Positions 2,321 through 32,289 of a stretch of DNA of 39,639 nucleotides are shown in pieces. How positions within the stretch are numbered: position 1 is the stretch's first letter; each line of letters begins with the position of its first letter. The notes under the pieces were generated by a model. The model had not been told where the DNA came from, ran no database searches, and was given only the letters and a program-made list of their open reading frames with translations. The stretch covers positions 1 to 39,639 of the forward strand of contig JAJRWS010000388.1 in NCBI GenBank assembly GCA_024276705.1. The letters are read 5' to 3'. Source of the DNA: Planctomycetota bacterium (GTDB taxonomy: Bacteria > Planctomycetota > Planctomycetia > Pirellulales > Lacipirellulaceae). Position numbers and translations under genes: made by a program.

Positions 2321-3222
2321 ACATTCGCGCGCTGACTCGCAACGACGCCGCGGCTCTCCTGCAAGTGTGGAACCGGGCGGCCATTTACGATCCGATGACT
2401 GCCTCGTTGCTCAAGGAAAAAATCTGGGGCGATCTGAATTGTTACGAGGACCTGGCGTGGGTCATCGAGGTGAATAAACAGTTGCTGGCCTTTGTCGTAG
2501 GCGTGTTTCGCCCCGTGATTCCGACCGCATTGGGCTACATCAAGCTGCTTGCCGTGGAACCCGATCGGCAGGGACAACATCTTGGCAGCCAGTTGCTGAA
2601 GCAGGTGGAAGATCGGCTTGGACAACAGGGAGTGAAAGAAATCCGCATCGCCGAGAGTGCCCCCAACTATCTTGTACCGGGCGTGGACCAACGCAATACG
2701 CGAGCACTCTCGTTCTTCAAACAGCACGGCTACGAACCGTTCGCGGAAGCCCACAACCTGTCGGTCGATCTGCAAGCGGAAGATTTTGGCACTCAGCAAG
2801 CGGAACAGAATCTGCGGAACCGGGGAATCGAAGTTCATCGTGCGACGCTGCCCGATCGGCCCGCGCTGGCCACCTTCCTGGAAACGCATTGGCCTTCGTG
2901 GCGAGACGAAGTGGAGTGTGCGCATACGGGCAACCCGATCCGCTTGCATCTTGCCTGGATGGACAAGGCGGTCATCGGCTTTGCCGCCTACGAGGGCAAC
3001 AACAGGGGGACCGGCTGGTTCGGTCCCATGGGCACCGATCCAGCGTATCGAGGCAGGGGGATTGGCGCGGTACTCCTGCGACGCTGCCTGCGCGACCTCC
3101 GGCATTCGGGACTCGCCCAAGCCGTCATCCCTTGGGCCGCCCACATTGGTTTTTACCAGCAACATGCAGGTGCGCGACGGAGCCGGACATTTCAGCGTTT
3201 TCGAAAACGGATTTACCCGTAA
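2317..3222 (+). CDS. Tandem GNAT-family N-acetyltransferase
   Basis: A 301-aa protein with two GNAT folds. The first (about 1-145) has the acetyl-CoA loop 'LLAVEPDRQGQHLGSQLL'. The second (about 165-300) has 'DPAYRGRGIGAVLLRRC', an R-G-R-G-I-G pyrophosphate-binding loop. Both loops look intact, so both halves may bind acetyl-CoA; the acceptor is unknown. The start is TTG at 2317, overlapping the permease stop by 4 nt, which indicates translational coupling. The 3' end overlaps the convergent SpoIID-like gene by 10 nt. The gene could acetylate an imported amino sugar or peptide, but this rests only on the neighbouring permease. Confidence 0.8.
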   Translation: MNIRALTRNDAAALLQVWNRAAIYDPMTASLLKEKIWGDLNCYEDLAWVIEVNKQLLAFVVGVFRPVIPTALGYIKLLAVEPDRQGQHLGSQLLKQVEDRLGQQGVKEIRIAESAPNYLVPGVDQRNTRALSFFKQHGYEPFAEAHNLSVDLQAEDFGTQQAEQNLRNRGIEVHRATLPDRPALATFLETHWPSWRDEVECAHTGNPIRLHLAWMDKAVIGFAAYEGNNRGTGWFGPMGTDPAYRGRGIGAVLLRRCLRDLRHSGLAQAVIPWAAHIGFYQQHAGARRSRTFQRFRKRIYP

Positions 3223-4631
3223 CATCGCACGACTTCGGTCCCAGGGTAGTAGTGAGTAAGAATCTCACGGTAGCCGATTCCCTGGCAGGCCATCACAGCC
3301 GCGCCGATCTGGCAAAGACCCACCCCATGCCCCCAGCCGGCGCCGGTCAAGAGAAAAGCATCCGGCCGTTCCGTTGGCCCCTCGGAGTCGATGACAAAAG
3401 CCGAACTGTACAAGTGGGTCGGAGAGAGCGCACGGCGGATTTCCAGTTCCTTGCCGACCACCAGACTGTTCGTTTCGCCTACCAGACGCAGCCTCTTCAG
3501 TCGCCCGGAGGGTCCACGTTCGATTGGTTCCAACGCCACCAGTCGGCCCAGGTCGATACCCAGTTTCTCGGCCACCAACTGGCCGGCTTGTGCCGCATCG
3601 AGCCGTACTTGCCAGCGAAAAAAATCAGCTGTCGCCTGGTCGTAATCGTTAAGCACCCGTCTCAGGATCGACGCATCGTGGCAGTTGCAATAGGCGGCCG
3701 GCGGGTCCTGAAGAAACGCCCGCAGCGTGTTTTCTTCGGTTAGCGCAGGCAGGTTAGGGTCATGACCTGGAGCAGGTTCCGAGCCGGGCCTGTCCGGCAA
3801 GGCGACCAGATAAGGAATTTCCTCATCGCCCCAAGCGGTCTGATACTGTTCGGTGACGCCACCACAACACTTACTGAAGCGGGCATCGCAAGCCTTGCCC
3901 GCAAACAGCAGGACTTGCCCCCGTGTCTCGGCAATGGCGTCCGTAACCTGGGGGGAACCGGTGCGGCCAATTCCCTGGTAGCGCTGGCAATGATCGTCCG
4001 CGCAGACGTCGTAGTCGGTATGTGCCTCGCGTTCGGTCCAGCGGATGCGAATCGCAAAAGAGGGCAGGTCTCTTTTTTGCCCCAAATCAACTTTTGGTAC
4101 CGGTTTGGTGCCTTGCAAAAAAGAGACCTGCCCCCTTTTGCGATCTAGCTGGGCAAGCAGCCAACTGCGCGAGATCACCGCATGCGTACGAATCGCTTCG
4201 ACCGGCGATTCGGCATTCATTTCCGAGCAGATCACCGACGTGATGTAAGTTTCCAACGCCACTTGATTGATGACCGTAAGATGACTTTCGTCGCGGACCA
4301 GCAACCGCAAACCGCCCCGAAACGCCTCGGTTTCGGTTTGCTGCCAATGAAAATCGATGCCGATGGTCGCTGCCAATACAAACCGGCAGTTGGCGGGGTC
4401 TTCTGGCTCCAGTTCCAGTGTCTCGAACTCTCCACGCAGTGCCCCCTCGCAAGATAAACGACCGTCCCTGCAGATGACGCGAATCTCACCTGGGCCAACA
4501 CGGTGGCCATCGGCAAATCGGTAAGAACCTTCCAAGCGGACCACCACCGACTCGGTCCGATCGATAATTCCCACATCGATGATCGGCTCTCGGGTGGGAG
4601 GCGATTTTTTGGCCGCTTCGTTGTTGGTCAT
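3213..4631 (-). CDS. SpoIID/LytB-domain protein without signal peptide
   Basis: A 472-aa SpoIID-domain protein; family members are lytic transglycosylases that cut denuded peptidoglycan glycan strands. Visible motifs are 'ICSEMNAESPVEAIRTHAVI', carrying the Glu expected to be catalytic, 'KCCGGVTEQ' (the usual 'SGGxTE' region but Cys-rich) and 'GWGHGVGLCQIGA' near the C-terminus. No signal peptide or membrane segment is seen at the N-terminus, unlike exported SpoIID, so a cytoplasmic role is possible. A palindromic element (4052-4143) is inserted in frame and encodes about 31 residues between 'LLAQLD' and 'RIRWTE'. The start overlaps the upstream DUF4922 stop by 4 nt. Confidence 0.85.
   Translation of the reverse strand: MTNNEAAKKSPPTREPIIDVGIIDRTESVVVRLEGSYRFADGHRVGPGEIRVICRDGRLSCEGALRGEFETLELEPEDPANCRFVLAATIGIDFHWQQTETEAFRGGLRLLVRDESHLTVINQVALETYITSVICSEMNAESPVEAIRTHAVISRSWLLAQLDRKRGQVSFLQGTKPVPKVDLGQKRDLPSFAIRIRWTEREAHTDYDVCADDHCQRYQGIGRTGSPQVTDAIAETRGQVLLFAGKACDARFSKCCGGVTEQYQTAWGDEEIPYLVALPDRPGSEPAPGHDPNLPALTEENTLRAFLQDPPAAYCNCHDASILRRVLNDYDQATADFFRWQVRLDAAQAGQLVAEKLGIDLGRLVALEPIERGPSGRLKRLRLVGETNSLVVGKELEIRRALSPTHLYSSAFVIDSEGPTERPDAFLLTGAGWGHGVGLCQIGAAVMACQGIGYREILTHYYPGTEVVRCYG
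4052..4143. repeat. Palindromic REP-like element inserted in frame in the SpoIID gene
   Basis: Two 29-nt inverted arms (4052-4080 and 4115-4143) match with a single mismatch around a 34-nt loop (4081-4114). The arm core is GCAGGTCTCTTTTTTGC. The reading frame of the host gene stays open and gains about 31 codons. The design (29-nt arms, one mismatch, short loop) matches the element at 29223-29318. Confidence 0.9.
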
Positions 4632-13532: not shown

Positions 13533-13555
13533 AAAAAGGTGTCCGACACCTTTTT
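13533..13555. repeat. REP palindrome, copy 1
   Basis: A 23-nt near-palindrome with core AGGTGTCCGACACCT. It is the exact reverse complement of 13717-13739. It lies directly after the antiporter stop and truncates the RAYT fragment. Confidence 0.9.
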
Positions 13556-13649
13556 GGCTATCTGTGTGAAAAATAGTTTCTTTCTTATTAGCCCGATTCA
13601 GCATGTGGTAGATACCACCCGCTTCATCCGCACGTTTAGTTCGTCCCAC
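13556..13649 (-). pseudogene. N-terminal remnant of a RAYT (REP-associated tyrosine transposase)
   Basis: On the minus strand, a GTG at 13649 opens about 31 codons that read as the start of a Y1/RAYT transposase: 'GRTKRADEAGGIYHMLNRAN' then 'KKETIFHTD'. 'YHxLNRxN...IF' is the family's first conserved block. The catalytic HUH and Tyr motifs are absent because the frame runs into REP copy 1 at 13555. With REPs on both sides this is a decayed REP-RAYT-REP unit, or a minimal element carrying a transposase stub. It cannot be an active transposase. Confidence 0.8.
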
Positions 13650-13706
13650 ATCGACACCCCCTATGATGAACGCTGGACAATAATCACGATGTGTTACCCA
13701 TATGCC

Positions 13707-15428
13707 CTATTCTTTCAAAAAGGTGTCGGACACCTTTTTTCTTATGCCGATCCCCACTTTGCCGGAGACACGCGGGTCGTGGATTCCGATGAGCTTGCCC
13801 CCCTCACGGCCGATCGCCTGGGTCACCCCAAACTGGTCGACTTGCTCGATACGATGTCCCCGGTGCTGCAAACCTTGATTCCATTCTGCCGGAAACGCTT
13901 GCTCGACGAGTACCTGATCGGGTAGCCACTGGTGATGGTAGCGGGGTCGGGCAACGGCCTCGGCCAGCGTCTGGCCGTAGTCGATGGTGCGTAGCAGTGT
14001 GAGTACTACTTGGGTGATGATGGTCGGTCCCCCGGCCGCTCCGACGGTGAGGAGCGGCTGTCCATCCTGGAGTACTAGGGTGGGACTCATGCTGGACAAA
14101 GGCCGCTTGCCGGGTGCAATCGCGTTGTTCTCCGCACCGACCAGGCCAAAAGCATTCGGTGTGCCTGGCTGACTCGAAAAGTCATCCATCTCGTTATTCA
14201 GCACAATCCCTGTCCCGGGGACAATCACGCAGGAGCCAAACGAAGTGTTCACCGTGGCTGTGATGGCCACCCAGTTGCCATCGCTGTCGGCGGCGGCAAT
14301 GTGCGTGGTGTGGCGGTTGCCGAACAGATCGCTGGTGCCTTGAGGCGGATTGCCGTGGGCCTCGACTTTCGCCGCCCGACACGGATCGATCGTTTGGGCC
14401 AGCCGGGCAGCGTACGATTTATCAATCAGGCCTCGAGGCACATCGACATAATCCGCATCACCCAGCCAGTGGGCCCGGTCGGCGAAGGCCCGCTTCAGCG
14501 CTTCGACGATCAGGTGGGAAGCGGCCACCGGATCTTTGGCCTGGAGCGACCGCAGGTCAAAATTTTCCAGTATGTTGAGAATCTGGGCCACATGCACGCC
14601 GCCGGAACTGGGAGGAGGGAAACCGACAATCGTGTAACCGCGGTAAACTGTTACGATCGGTTTTCGCTGGCGGGCCATGTAGTGGGCAAAGTCCGCCGCA
14701 GTCACGATGCCCTCATGACGGGCCATCCAGGAACCGACCGCCTGGGCGTATGGGCCCCGATAGAACCAATCGGTCCCATGGCGGGCGACCTGACGATAGG
14801 AGCGGGCCAGGTCCGGCTGCTTGAGAATTTCGCCTGCCCGGTAAGGCATGCCATCCGGCTTGAGCAGTACGGCCCGAGTCGCTGCAAACCGGGCAAGGCT
14901 GCTGGCGGTCTTGGCCAGGTTGGCCGCATAACGGCCATCGATGGCGAAACCCTCTTCGGCGATTCGGGCGGCTGGCAACAACAAATCCTCGAGCTTGCGT
15001 TGCCCGTACTTTTCCAGCACCAGCGCATAGGCGGCCAGGGCACCCGGCACGCCGACCGCCAATGGACCGATGGTACTCAATTCAGGCACAACCTGGCCGT
15101 CGCGGAGGTACATGTCGCGAGTGGCGGCAGCCGGGGCCATTTCGCGACCTTCGATCGCCACCAATCGGCCATCCGCCAGGCGGAGCAAGATAAAACAGCC
15201 TCCGCCCAGGCCAGAATTGTGGTTGTCAACCACGCCCAGGGTCAGCGCGGCCGCAACTGCCGCGTCAATCGCATTGCCACCACTCACAAAGGCTGCGGTG
15301 GCCGCATCGGTCGCCAACGGCTGTACGGTCGCCACGATACAGCGGCTCTGGGCCCAGACGACCGGCCTTGATTCACAACAGAGAGTCAGAACCAATACGG
15401 ATACAATCCAGGCCAGGGAGATACGCAT
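13707..15428 (-). CDS. ggt: Gamma-glutamyltransferase
   Basis: A 573-aa Ntn-hydrolase, exported, with a signal peptide at about 1-27 ending near 'VWAQS'. It transfers or hydrolyses gamma-glutamyl groups, for example of glutathione, in the periplasm. The autoprocessing nucleophile is T374 in 'RHTTHIAAAD'. Other family residues are R95 ('EGREMAP'), 'NTSFGS' at 394-399, 'NNEMDDF' at 411-417, the oxyanion 'PLSSMSP' at 443-449 and 'GAAGGP' at 463-468. The heavy and light chains are both complete. The last ten or so residues come from a REP palindrome and are not part of the family. The gene follows uxaC after 1 bp, indicating co-transcription. Confidence 0.92.
   Translation of the reverse strand: MRISLAWIVSVLVLTLCCESRPVVWAQSRCIVATVQPLATDAATAAFVSGGNAIDAAVAAALTLGVVDNHNSGLGGGCFILLRLADGRLVAIEGREMAPAAATRDMYLRDGQVVPELSTIGPLAVGVPGALAAYALVLEKYGQRKLEDLLLPAARIAEEGFAIDGRYAANLAKTASSLARFAATRAVLLKPDGMPYRAGEILKQPDLARSYRQVARHGTDWFYRGPYAQAVGSWMARHEGIVTAADFAHYMARQRKPIVTVYRGYTIVGFPPPSSGGVHVAQILNILENFDLRSLQAKDPVAASHLIVEALKRAFADRAHWLGDADYVDVPRGLIDKSYAARLAQTIDPCRAAKVEAHGNPPQGTSDLFGNRHTTHIAAADSDGNWVAITATVNTSFGSCVIVPGTGIVLNNEMDDFSSQPGTPNAFGLVGAENNAIAPGKRPLSSMSPTLVLQDGQPLLTVGAAGGPTIITQVVLTLLRTIDYGQTLAEAVARPRYHHQWLPDQVLVEQAFPAEWNQGLQHRGHRIEQVDQFGVTQAIGREGGKLIGIHDPRVSGKVGIGIRKKVSDTFLKE
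13717..13739. repeat. REP palindrome, copy 2, inside the ggt 3' end
   Basis: Exact inverse of copy 1 (13533-13555), with core AGGTGTCGGACACCT. It encodes most of the C-terminal 'KKVSDTFLKE' of the gamma-glutamyltransferase, so the palindrome overlaps coding sequence. Confidence 0.9.
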
Positions 15429-28205: not shown

Positions 28206-29711
28206 ATGTCTGGTCCCATGAAAATTCGATGGTCCAATCTGCTACTCCCCGGATTGCTGGCGGTACTCGGAGCCTGGCTGATCGTGGCGTGGCTGGGTAC
28301 AGGGTCGTTGGGTAATTTACAAATTCGCGTCCCAGGCATGGACCTTCCCGCTGGCGGCAGTGGTTCAAGCCAGGAGGCCCTGCCACCGCCCGTGGCCGGC
28401 AAGACGATCCGGGGCGACGGCCAACCGGCGGACCTGGCCGGCAGTTGGCCCTGGTTCCGCGGCCCCAGGCACGATGGCATCTGCCACGACATGTTCCGAT
28501 TGGCCCGATCGTGGCCCGAGTCAGGACCGGCCCTCCTCTGGACCGTTGAAATGGGAGAGGGCTACGCCAGCCCGGCGATCCACGACGGCTGCGCCTATGT
28601 TCTGGACTACGACGAGCAAGCCAAAGCCGACACGATGCGCTGCTTGTCACTTGCCGATGGGCGGGAAGTCTGGCGCAACAGCTACCCGATTCTCGTCACT
28701 CGCAATCATGGCATGTCCCGCACGGTACCAGCCATCATCGATGACTGCGTCATTTCGCTCGGCCCACGTTGCCACGTGGCCTGCTGGGATACCAAGACCG
28801 GCGACTGCCGCTGGTTGGTCGACCTGGCCGGGCAGTACGGCGCCACGGTACCGCGGTGGTACGCGGGCCAGTGTCCGCTGATCGACCGCCAGCAACTGGT
28901 TCTGGCTCCATGCGGCGAGTCGATGCTGATCGCCTTGGATCCCAAGACCGGCAGCCTGCTCTGGAAGAGCCCCAACCCCCGTGGCTGGCGCATGACCCAT
29001 GCCTCGATCGTGCCGATGGAATTTCAAGGACGCCGCACCTATGTCTACTGCGGCAGTGGCGGCGTGGCCGGTATCGACGCGGAGGATGGAACATTGCTCT
29101 GGGACAGCACTGCATGGCCAGAGCAATTTGCCACCAGCCCTTCCCCCGTGCCGCTACCCGATGGCCGCATTTTCCTGTCGAGCGGCTACAACAGCAAAGT
29201 GGGCAGCCTCATGCTACAGTTGCGGAAAAAGGTGTCAGGAACCTTTTCTCCCCAAACAGTGCGGAAAAAGGAGAATGAATCCTTTTCTGAGAAAAGGTTC
29301 CTGGCACCTTTTTCCGCGGAAGTCGCTTTTCGTCTGACCCCCAAACAGTTCAATTCGGAACAGCAAACGCCCATCTACTTCGACGGACACCTGTTTGCCG
29401 TTCGTAAGCGGGGTGGCGGCCAACTGGTCTGCATGGATCTGGCAGGGGACGAGCTCTGGAACAGCGGCTCGGACCGTTTTGGCCACGGTCCCTACATGAT
29501 CGCGGACGGCTTGATCCTGGCCATGGACAATCGGGGAAAACTCACGATGGCCGAAGCTACTTCCGCCCATTACCGGCGTCTCGGCCAGTGGACCGTTTTT
29601 CAGGATGGTCACGACGCCTGGGGCCCCATGGCGTTGGCCGACGGCCGGTTGATTGTCCGGGATATGACCCGAATGGCATGTCTCGATATCGGCGCGAAAT
29701 CGGATAAATGA
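28206..29711 (+). CDS. PQQ-like beta-propeller protein carrying an in-frame palindrome
   Basis: A 501-aa membrane-anchored or exported protein; 'LLLPGLLAVLGAWLIVAWLG' near residues 12-31 is the signal or anchor. The propeller starts near 'SWPWFRGPRHDGI', with blades including 'RCLSLADGREVWR', 'ACWDTKTGDCRWL' and 'IALDPKTGSLLWK'. A 96-bp palindromic element (29223-29318) adds exactly 32 codons between 'GSLMLQL' and 'EVAFRLTP' without breaking the frame. An alternative ATG at 28218 ('MKIRWSN') is equally plausible. The stop overlaps the start of the esterase gene (ATGA). Confidence 0.85.
   Translation: MSGPMKIRWSNLLLPGLLAVLGAWLIVAWLGTGSLGNLQIRVPGMDLPAGGSGSSQEALPPPVAGKTIRGDGQPADLAGSWPWFRGPRHDGICHDMFRLARSWPESGPALLWTVEMGEGYASPAIHDGCAYVLDYDEQAKADTMRCLSLADGREVWRNSYPILVTRNHGMSRTVPAIIDDCVISLGPRCHVACWDTKTGDCRWLVDLAGQYGATVPRWYAGQCPLIDRQQLVLAPCGESMLIALDPKTGSLLWKSPNPRGWRMTHASIVPMEFQGRRTYVYCGSGGVAGIDAEDGTLLWDSTAWPEQFATSPSPVPLPDGRIFLSSGYNSKVGSLMLQLRKKVSGTFSPQTVRKKENESFSEKRFLAPFSAEVAFRLTPKQFNSEQQTPIYFDGHLFAVRKRGGGQLVCMDLAGDELWNSGSDRFGHGPYMIADGLILAMDNRGKLTMAEATSAHYRRLGQWTVFQDGHDAWGPMALADGRLIVRDMTRMACLDIGAKSDK
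29223..29318. repeat. Palindromic REP-like element inserted in frame in a PQQ-like gene
   Basis: 29-nt arms (29223-29251 and 29290-29318) match with one mismatch, around a 38-nt loop that itself holds a smaller palindrome (AAAAGGA...TCCTTTT). The arm core GGTGTCAGGAACC shares AAAAAGGTGTC with the REPs at 13533 and 13717. Total length is 96 bp, or 32 codons. Confidence 0.92.
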
Positions 29712-32219: not shown

Positions 32220-32289
32220 AGAACCTGTCCCAGAACTCCTTGCAGGCATAGTTGGCTAGGACGAATGGCAAGGTTCTGGGACAGGTTCT
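32220..32289. repeat. REP-like palindrome (GAACCTGTCCCAGAAC)
   Basis: Arms 32220-32243 and 32268-32289 are inverted copies differing by a short insertion (AACTCC versus AACC), around a 24-nt loop. It is intergenic, upstream of the Uma2 gene. Design resembles the in-frame elements but the core sequence differs. Confidence 0.85.

Follow-up and report, generated by a model that had tools for sequence, protein, structure and literature searches.

REPs were named for being extragenic. REPINs, which Bertels and Rainey are said to have described in 2011, reportedly consist of two inverted REP units with a short spacer, are about 100 bp long, and are dispersed in genomes that contain a RAYT gene. REPs and REP dimers also occur within genes, where over half of them encode 20-30 residues; uvrA is among the targets, and loops and linkers were proposed as the tolerant places (Di Nocera et al. 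2013, PMC3733652, in the part of the paper used here). The Rickettsia palindromic elements (RPEs) are about 150 bp long, and lie in frame in many unrelated genes with a conserved peptide (PMC10969869, in the part used). In the Planctomycetes, class 3 TnpA_Y1 comprises hairpin-flanked Y1 transposase genes without GTAG, with the foot CnGA and the motif YV[VI][AENY]EQ (PMC6006769, in the part used). No report of in-gene REPs in the Pirellulales was found in the literature searched.

The palindrome and its host gene

The window (the whole stretch of DNA that was analysed, 39,639 nt) corresponds to contig C307 and comes from a Lacipirellulaceae draft genome (6.36 Mb, 698 contigs, 85% complete). One of its genes, described as PQQ-like in an earlier note, indeed gave a Pfam PQQ_2 match, and matches were found in 111 of the 117 genomes searched (E<=1e-20). 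The gene contains a palindrome, across the whole of which the reading frame is uninterrupted. The features are as follows:

28206-29711, plus strand: host gene for a 501-aa PQQ_2 / BamB-like beta-propeller protein (Pfam PF13360, E=1.1e-21)
29222-29250, plus strand: left arm, holding REP unit R1 AAAAGGTGTCAGGAACCTTTT at 29227-29247 (repeat and pattern search)
29223-29327, plus strand: loop of 35 codons separating the LMLQL strand from the FRLTP strand; most homologues have 12 codons here (homologue alignment)
29266-29286, plus strand: middle, diverged REP unit R2 AAAAGGAGAATGAATCCTTTT, a nested palindrome (repeat and unit search)
29289-29317, minus strand: right arm, holding inverted REP unit R3 AAAAGGTGCCAGGAACCTTTT at 29292-29312 (repeat and pattern search)

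The repeat search located the inverted repeat at 29222-29317, with 28 of the 29 arm positions complementary. The earlier description (29-nt arms with one mismatch, a 38-nt loop, 96 bp in total) was reproduced in full; its position of 29223-29318 was one base off. With a score of matches minus 2 per mismatch, the palindrome reaches 26; when the whole window was shuffled 100 times with its dinucleotides preserved, the best score per shuffle had a median of 11 and never exceeded 16. The palindrome is real and beyond chance. It consists of two inverted REP units of the form AAAAGG-N9-CCTTTT; between these lies a third unit, the diverged R2, which is the smaller palindrome that had been noticed within the loop. 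The palindrome had also been described as exactly 32 codons. The 96-nt repeat begins at codon position 3, so that "32 codons" reflects the choice of the cut and not the insert; in homologues that lack it, the protein is shorter by 23 codons. This genome has three inverted pairs within genes, with spans of 96, 94, and 92 nt, which is at odds with the idea that in-gene copies have lengths in multiples of 3; an open frame is what selection alone would leave.

Alignment with homologues showed that the element is absent from most of them. The loop has 12 codons in 15 of the 16 aligned loci, which come from other genera and beyond, versus 35 codons in the window (a net gain of 23). Among five GTDB r220 records, L189-L192 have the short loop, and L188 has the long one. 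The long-loop exceptions, G013 and L188, are apparently the same organism, with an identical loop. In this sister genus (G013), the loop has exactly 35 codons, equal to the window. The loop DNA of the two is identical at 39 of 105 positions (shuffles 26.0, s.d. 4.4, P=0.0024), whereas the two flanks agree at 79 and 85 of 105. The G013 loop also contains an 11-nt inverted repeat, AAAGGAAGCGG/CCGCCTCCTTT, which is 10/11 complementary and lies at the corresponding places. The likeliest reading of these sequences is that the two loops derive from a shared old insertion, which would have decayed in G013. The near-perfect arms in the window may be due to refreshing in place or to a second insertion.

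An AlphaFold2 model of the host protein (11 sequences, mean pLDDT 82) has strands at residues 335-341 and 369-376, and the pLDDT falls below 50 at residues 345-364, the REP-encoded part. In this model, the REP-encoded segment is a disordered loop of a beta-hairpin between two strands of a propeller blade.

The REP family and its link to RAYT genes

The core AAAGG-N3-C-N-G-N3-CCTTT has 26 copies in the genome, which merge into 18 sites, versus 1 copy for the reversed control pattern; AAAAGGTGYC alone was uninformative (81 versus 50 in the control). The exact 21-mer AAAAGGTGTCAGGAACCTTTT was found in at least seven relatives (G011, G017, G019, G020, G023, G036, and G040) among the 43 genomes searched. 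At L286, L291, and L292 of the relatives, a RAYT gene lies between two inverted AAAAGGTGTCAGGAACCTTTT-type units spaced by about 730 bp, in a REP-RAYT-REP arrangement. At L295, the RAYT gene lies between two REP units, the first of which is at the contig end; at L298, it has a REP unit on one side. These RAYTs show 66-76% identity to the own-genome RAYT of contig C467, with 70-76% for those at L286, L291, and L292. The C467 RAYT has a REP unit 30 bp upstream and contains the motifs NHWH and YVERNA. In total, five Y1_Tnp genes are present in the own genome. The RAYT at L072 11500-12177, with NHWH and YVERNA, scores 61.9 against the cut-off of 80 of NCBIfam REP_Tyr_transpos, and may represent an undescribed RAYT subclass.

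The window itself contains a second REP locus:

13533-13555, no strand assigned: REP unit AAAAAGGTGTCCGACACCTTTTT (repeat and pattern search)
13557-13649, minus strand: remains of a decayed RAYT N-terminus, flanked by both REPs (tblastn with residues 4-34 of the C467 RAYT)
13717-13740, no strand assigned: REP unit AAAAAGGTGTCGGACACCTTTTTT (repeat and pattern search)

The earlier note had proposed that these REPs (13533-13739) flank a RAYT remnant and share their core with the palindrome, which would thus belong to a RAYT-associated family. The remnant was recovered (31 aa, 52% identity, E=2.8e-6), and AAAAAGGTGTC is common to the palindrome and to both REP units. The link to RAYT holds, because the 21-mer flanks the intact RAYT genes of relatives in inverted orientation and sits next to the RAYT of the own genome. 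No conserved guide tetranucleotide was recognised beside the REP stems. Neither GTAG (or GTGG) nor CGTC was seen by eye against the stem foot in the oriented units listed, which sets the family apart from the GTAG/CGTC REPs.

Other palindromes were met in the scanned loci. Seven of them hold members of a MITE-like family, about 101 bp long, whose terminal repeat is AGGATCGTTCGAGAAATAACTG (L096 3376-3476, L098 379-477, L099 10385-10485, L101 17475-17575, L118 87-187, L119 5554-5654, and L124 4102-4200). Another family, of about 78 bp, has an arm close to TGAGCCGAAGGCGCTAGCCTCGGGT (L079 3836-3915, L090 10587-10664, L098 4280-4357, and L124 216-293). In the window, a perfect 17-nt inverted repeat, AGAACCTGTCCCAGAAC, at 32220-32289 is intergenic, and is apparently another small palindromic element.

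REP copies inside other genes

To count as in-gene, a site had to lie inside an ORF of 200 aa or longer that continues for 60 codons in both directions from it. Seven of the 18 own REP sites pass this test, compared with 61% of random positions in the REP loci; the REPs are thus still depleted within genes. Other long palindromes, chosen regardless of REP matches, gave 0 of 30 in such ORFs (510 kb); the difference from the REP sites has a one-sided hypergeometric P of about 4e-4, with those 30 being other families. The Pfam search at the in-gene sites identified CarA (C635), NadE (C643), a double UvrA gene (C680), a molybdopterin enzyme (C392), which is a selenium-dependent xanthine dehydrogenase (XDH) according to NCBIfam, and a Cas3-HD domain (C281). 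The C11 membrane protein had no Pfam match, yet 11 homologues could be aligned. Six in-gene sites are sound, on the basis of Pfam for the quinoprotein PQQ gene, CarA, NadE, XDH, and UvrA, and of the homologue alignment for the C11 membrane protein. The genome-wide search suggested in the earlier note thus revealed in-gene copies in several other genes. The REP units in these genes are read in three different codon phases.

The Cas3-HD ORF passes the test, but it was left out of the six, since the frame closes shortly past the REPs and no part of a helicase was recognised. This frame (L073 1315-2313) contains two direct REP units and stops about 100 codons on, and is possibly a gene broken by the REPs. 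REPs of a related type near a pilin-like gene (C297) are actually upstream; they only seemed intragenic because the frame is open before the likely start. The L280 and L281 sites were judged by eye to have a frame open ahead of the likely start, and C672 seems to be a chance match. A REP pair at L105 3658-3737 overlaps the final codons of a DUF4129 gene.

A palindrome with a variant or related core is an additional in-gene case in the window:

4051-4144, minus strand: second in-frame palindrome, core AAAAGGGGGCAGGTCTCTTTT, making up a variable loop in the SpoIID-domain gene at 3213-4631 (minus strand; repeat search and Pfam)

A matching architecture had been suggested for 4052-4143; the in-frame palindrome is there, with a span of 94 nt instead of 92.

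Of the 31 REP sites in the relatives, 4 qualify as in-gene by the ORF test, and L297 alone looks real. At L297 2578-2636 (G020), an in-frame REPIN follows directly on the second domain of a 1057-aa ORF for proline dehydrogenase/aldehyde dehydrogenase. The ORF at L298 is the RAYT running open upstream, and L276 passed on its ORF. The in-gene REP share of this genome is unusually high; since only one of the four passing sites in relatives looks real, this share is a trait of the genome and not of the family as sampled.

Placement was compared with homologues for PQQ, CarA, NadE, C11, and SpoIID, and with PDB 1sij for XDH. The CarA linker segment is 61 aa, versus 46-71 aa in 24 informative homologues (of 29; L220, L221, L228, and L243 were blank, and L223 was partial). 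The NadE segment is 69 aa, versus 71-78 aa, and is shorter than in all 27 informative homologues (of 29; L254 and L272 were blank); the REP therefore replaces native codons without any gain. The C11 loop exceeds all 11 homologues in length, as judged by eye, and XDH is a few residues longer than 1sij. The SpoIID loop of about 31 aa is nearly all palindrome, versus about 20 aa in G007 and about 42 aa in G013. The in-gene REPs are in frame, lie in variable loops or linkers, have no fixed phase, and cause a net length change unequal to the element. As the net gain in the PQQ gene is 23 rather than 32 codons, and is zero in NadE, simple clean insertion cannot explain every case.

Origin of the palindrome and comparison with known systems

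The palindrome is very probably a REPIN-like element of a RAYT-mobilised REP family, which survives within a gene where the frame and the loop tolerate it. It comprises the inverted pair of REP units and the diverged unit R2. The RAYT (Y1/HuH) transposase most likely moves the REPs as single-stranded hairpins, and an in-gene copy would persist only with an open frame and with the extra residues in a loop or linker. The small number of passing sites in relatives (4 of 31), the absence of a recognisable guide tetranucleotide, and the net length changes speak against this reading. The palindrome would be translated as most of the 35-codon loop extruded from the propeller blade, and the segment may be nearly neutral for the host protein. 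A further proposal, that the RAYT-driven REPs here swap short stretches of loop codons and are refreshed in place, so that a REP would keep turning over in one protein loop for longer than a genus is old, is unlikely.

Local template switching at a small quasi-palindrome, unrelated to mobile repeats, would leave almost perfect arms, as seen here; loops are permissive to such changes, and the net length change is unequal to the element length. However, exact copies of the 21-mer are present in at least seven other genomes of the family, and the RAYT-flanking units are likewise identical to it. These shared 21-mers weigh strongly against template switching, which is very unlikely. The REP might instead have been recruited and kept as an in-gene nucleic-acid signal, such as an attenuator, an mRNA stability element, or a protein-binding site. 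This would explain why the arms are still near perfect (28/29) despite the decayed repeat in the sister-genus loop of equal length (39 of 105 identical, versus 79 and 85 in the flanks), and a single minus-strand match of terminator type overlaps the palindrome. But the terminator scan gave 1 site versus 1.6 on average in shuffles, and REP units occur in unrelated genes at differing positions, which leaves only a slim chance for recruitment.

Translational bypass has been described at strong hairpins within open genes, and the palindrome is a site of this kind. The stem-loop could trigger such a bypass, or the RNA could be processed, to give a protein without the segment. However, the frame is open throughout, and the element exceeds the net gain, so that skipping the palindrome would cost residues of the native length; the segment is also predicted to lie in a tolerant loop, where skipping would be unneeded. 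Skipping is highly improbable. The draft state of the genome (698 contigs, 85% complete) could point to a metagenome assembly artefact, but the frame is kept in each of several independent genes, the palindrome coincides with no contig break, and the same units are present in other assemblies; an artefact is scarcely credible.

In this genome, one REP family has a third of its sites in frame within apparently working genes, including CarA, NadE, and UvrA. Such a genome records, by natural experiment, the places at which proteins tolerate additional residues. It joins Rickettsia and Opitutus as an example of protein loops being remodelled by small mobile DNA. Because the sister genus has a loop of equal length, the age and turnover of such an insert become testable.

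The palindrome resembles the REPINs in its paired inverted units (29227-29247 and 29292-29312) with a short spacer, its length of about 100 bp, and its dispersed family (26 cores versus 1 reversed control, well above chance). The genome also has a cognate RAYT with its own REP (C467), and in relatives inverted pairs surround this gene. The differences are the low copy number (26 cores), a core without GTAG, and the large in-gene share. Class 3 TnpA_Y1 (PMC6006769, in the part used) is similar in having planctomycete Y1 transposase genes and untagged flanking hairpins. However, the RAYT here has NHWH and YVERNA, motifs absent from the table rows of PMC6006769 compared; the feet vary, and neither the foot CnGA nor the Y....Q motif was found in the own RAYT and feet.

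Like the RPEs, which are palindromes in frame within many unrelated genes (PMC10969869, in the part used), the palindrome lies in frame inside a gene. The elements here are 92-96 bp or a single 21-23-mer, and their varied codon phases, three in all, are incompatible with one conserved peptide in one phase. The intragenic GTAG/CGTC REPs (PMC3733652, in the part used) share the in-gene REPs and dimers, the uvrA target, and the proposed tolerance in loops and linkers, whereas the GTAG/CGTC tag is lacking here and the targets differ except for UvrA. In-frame REP insertion in loops is thus of a kind known from the Rickettsia RPEs and the intragenic GTAG REPs, here with untagged REPs.
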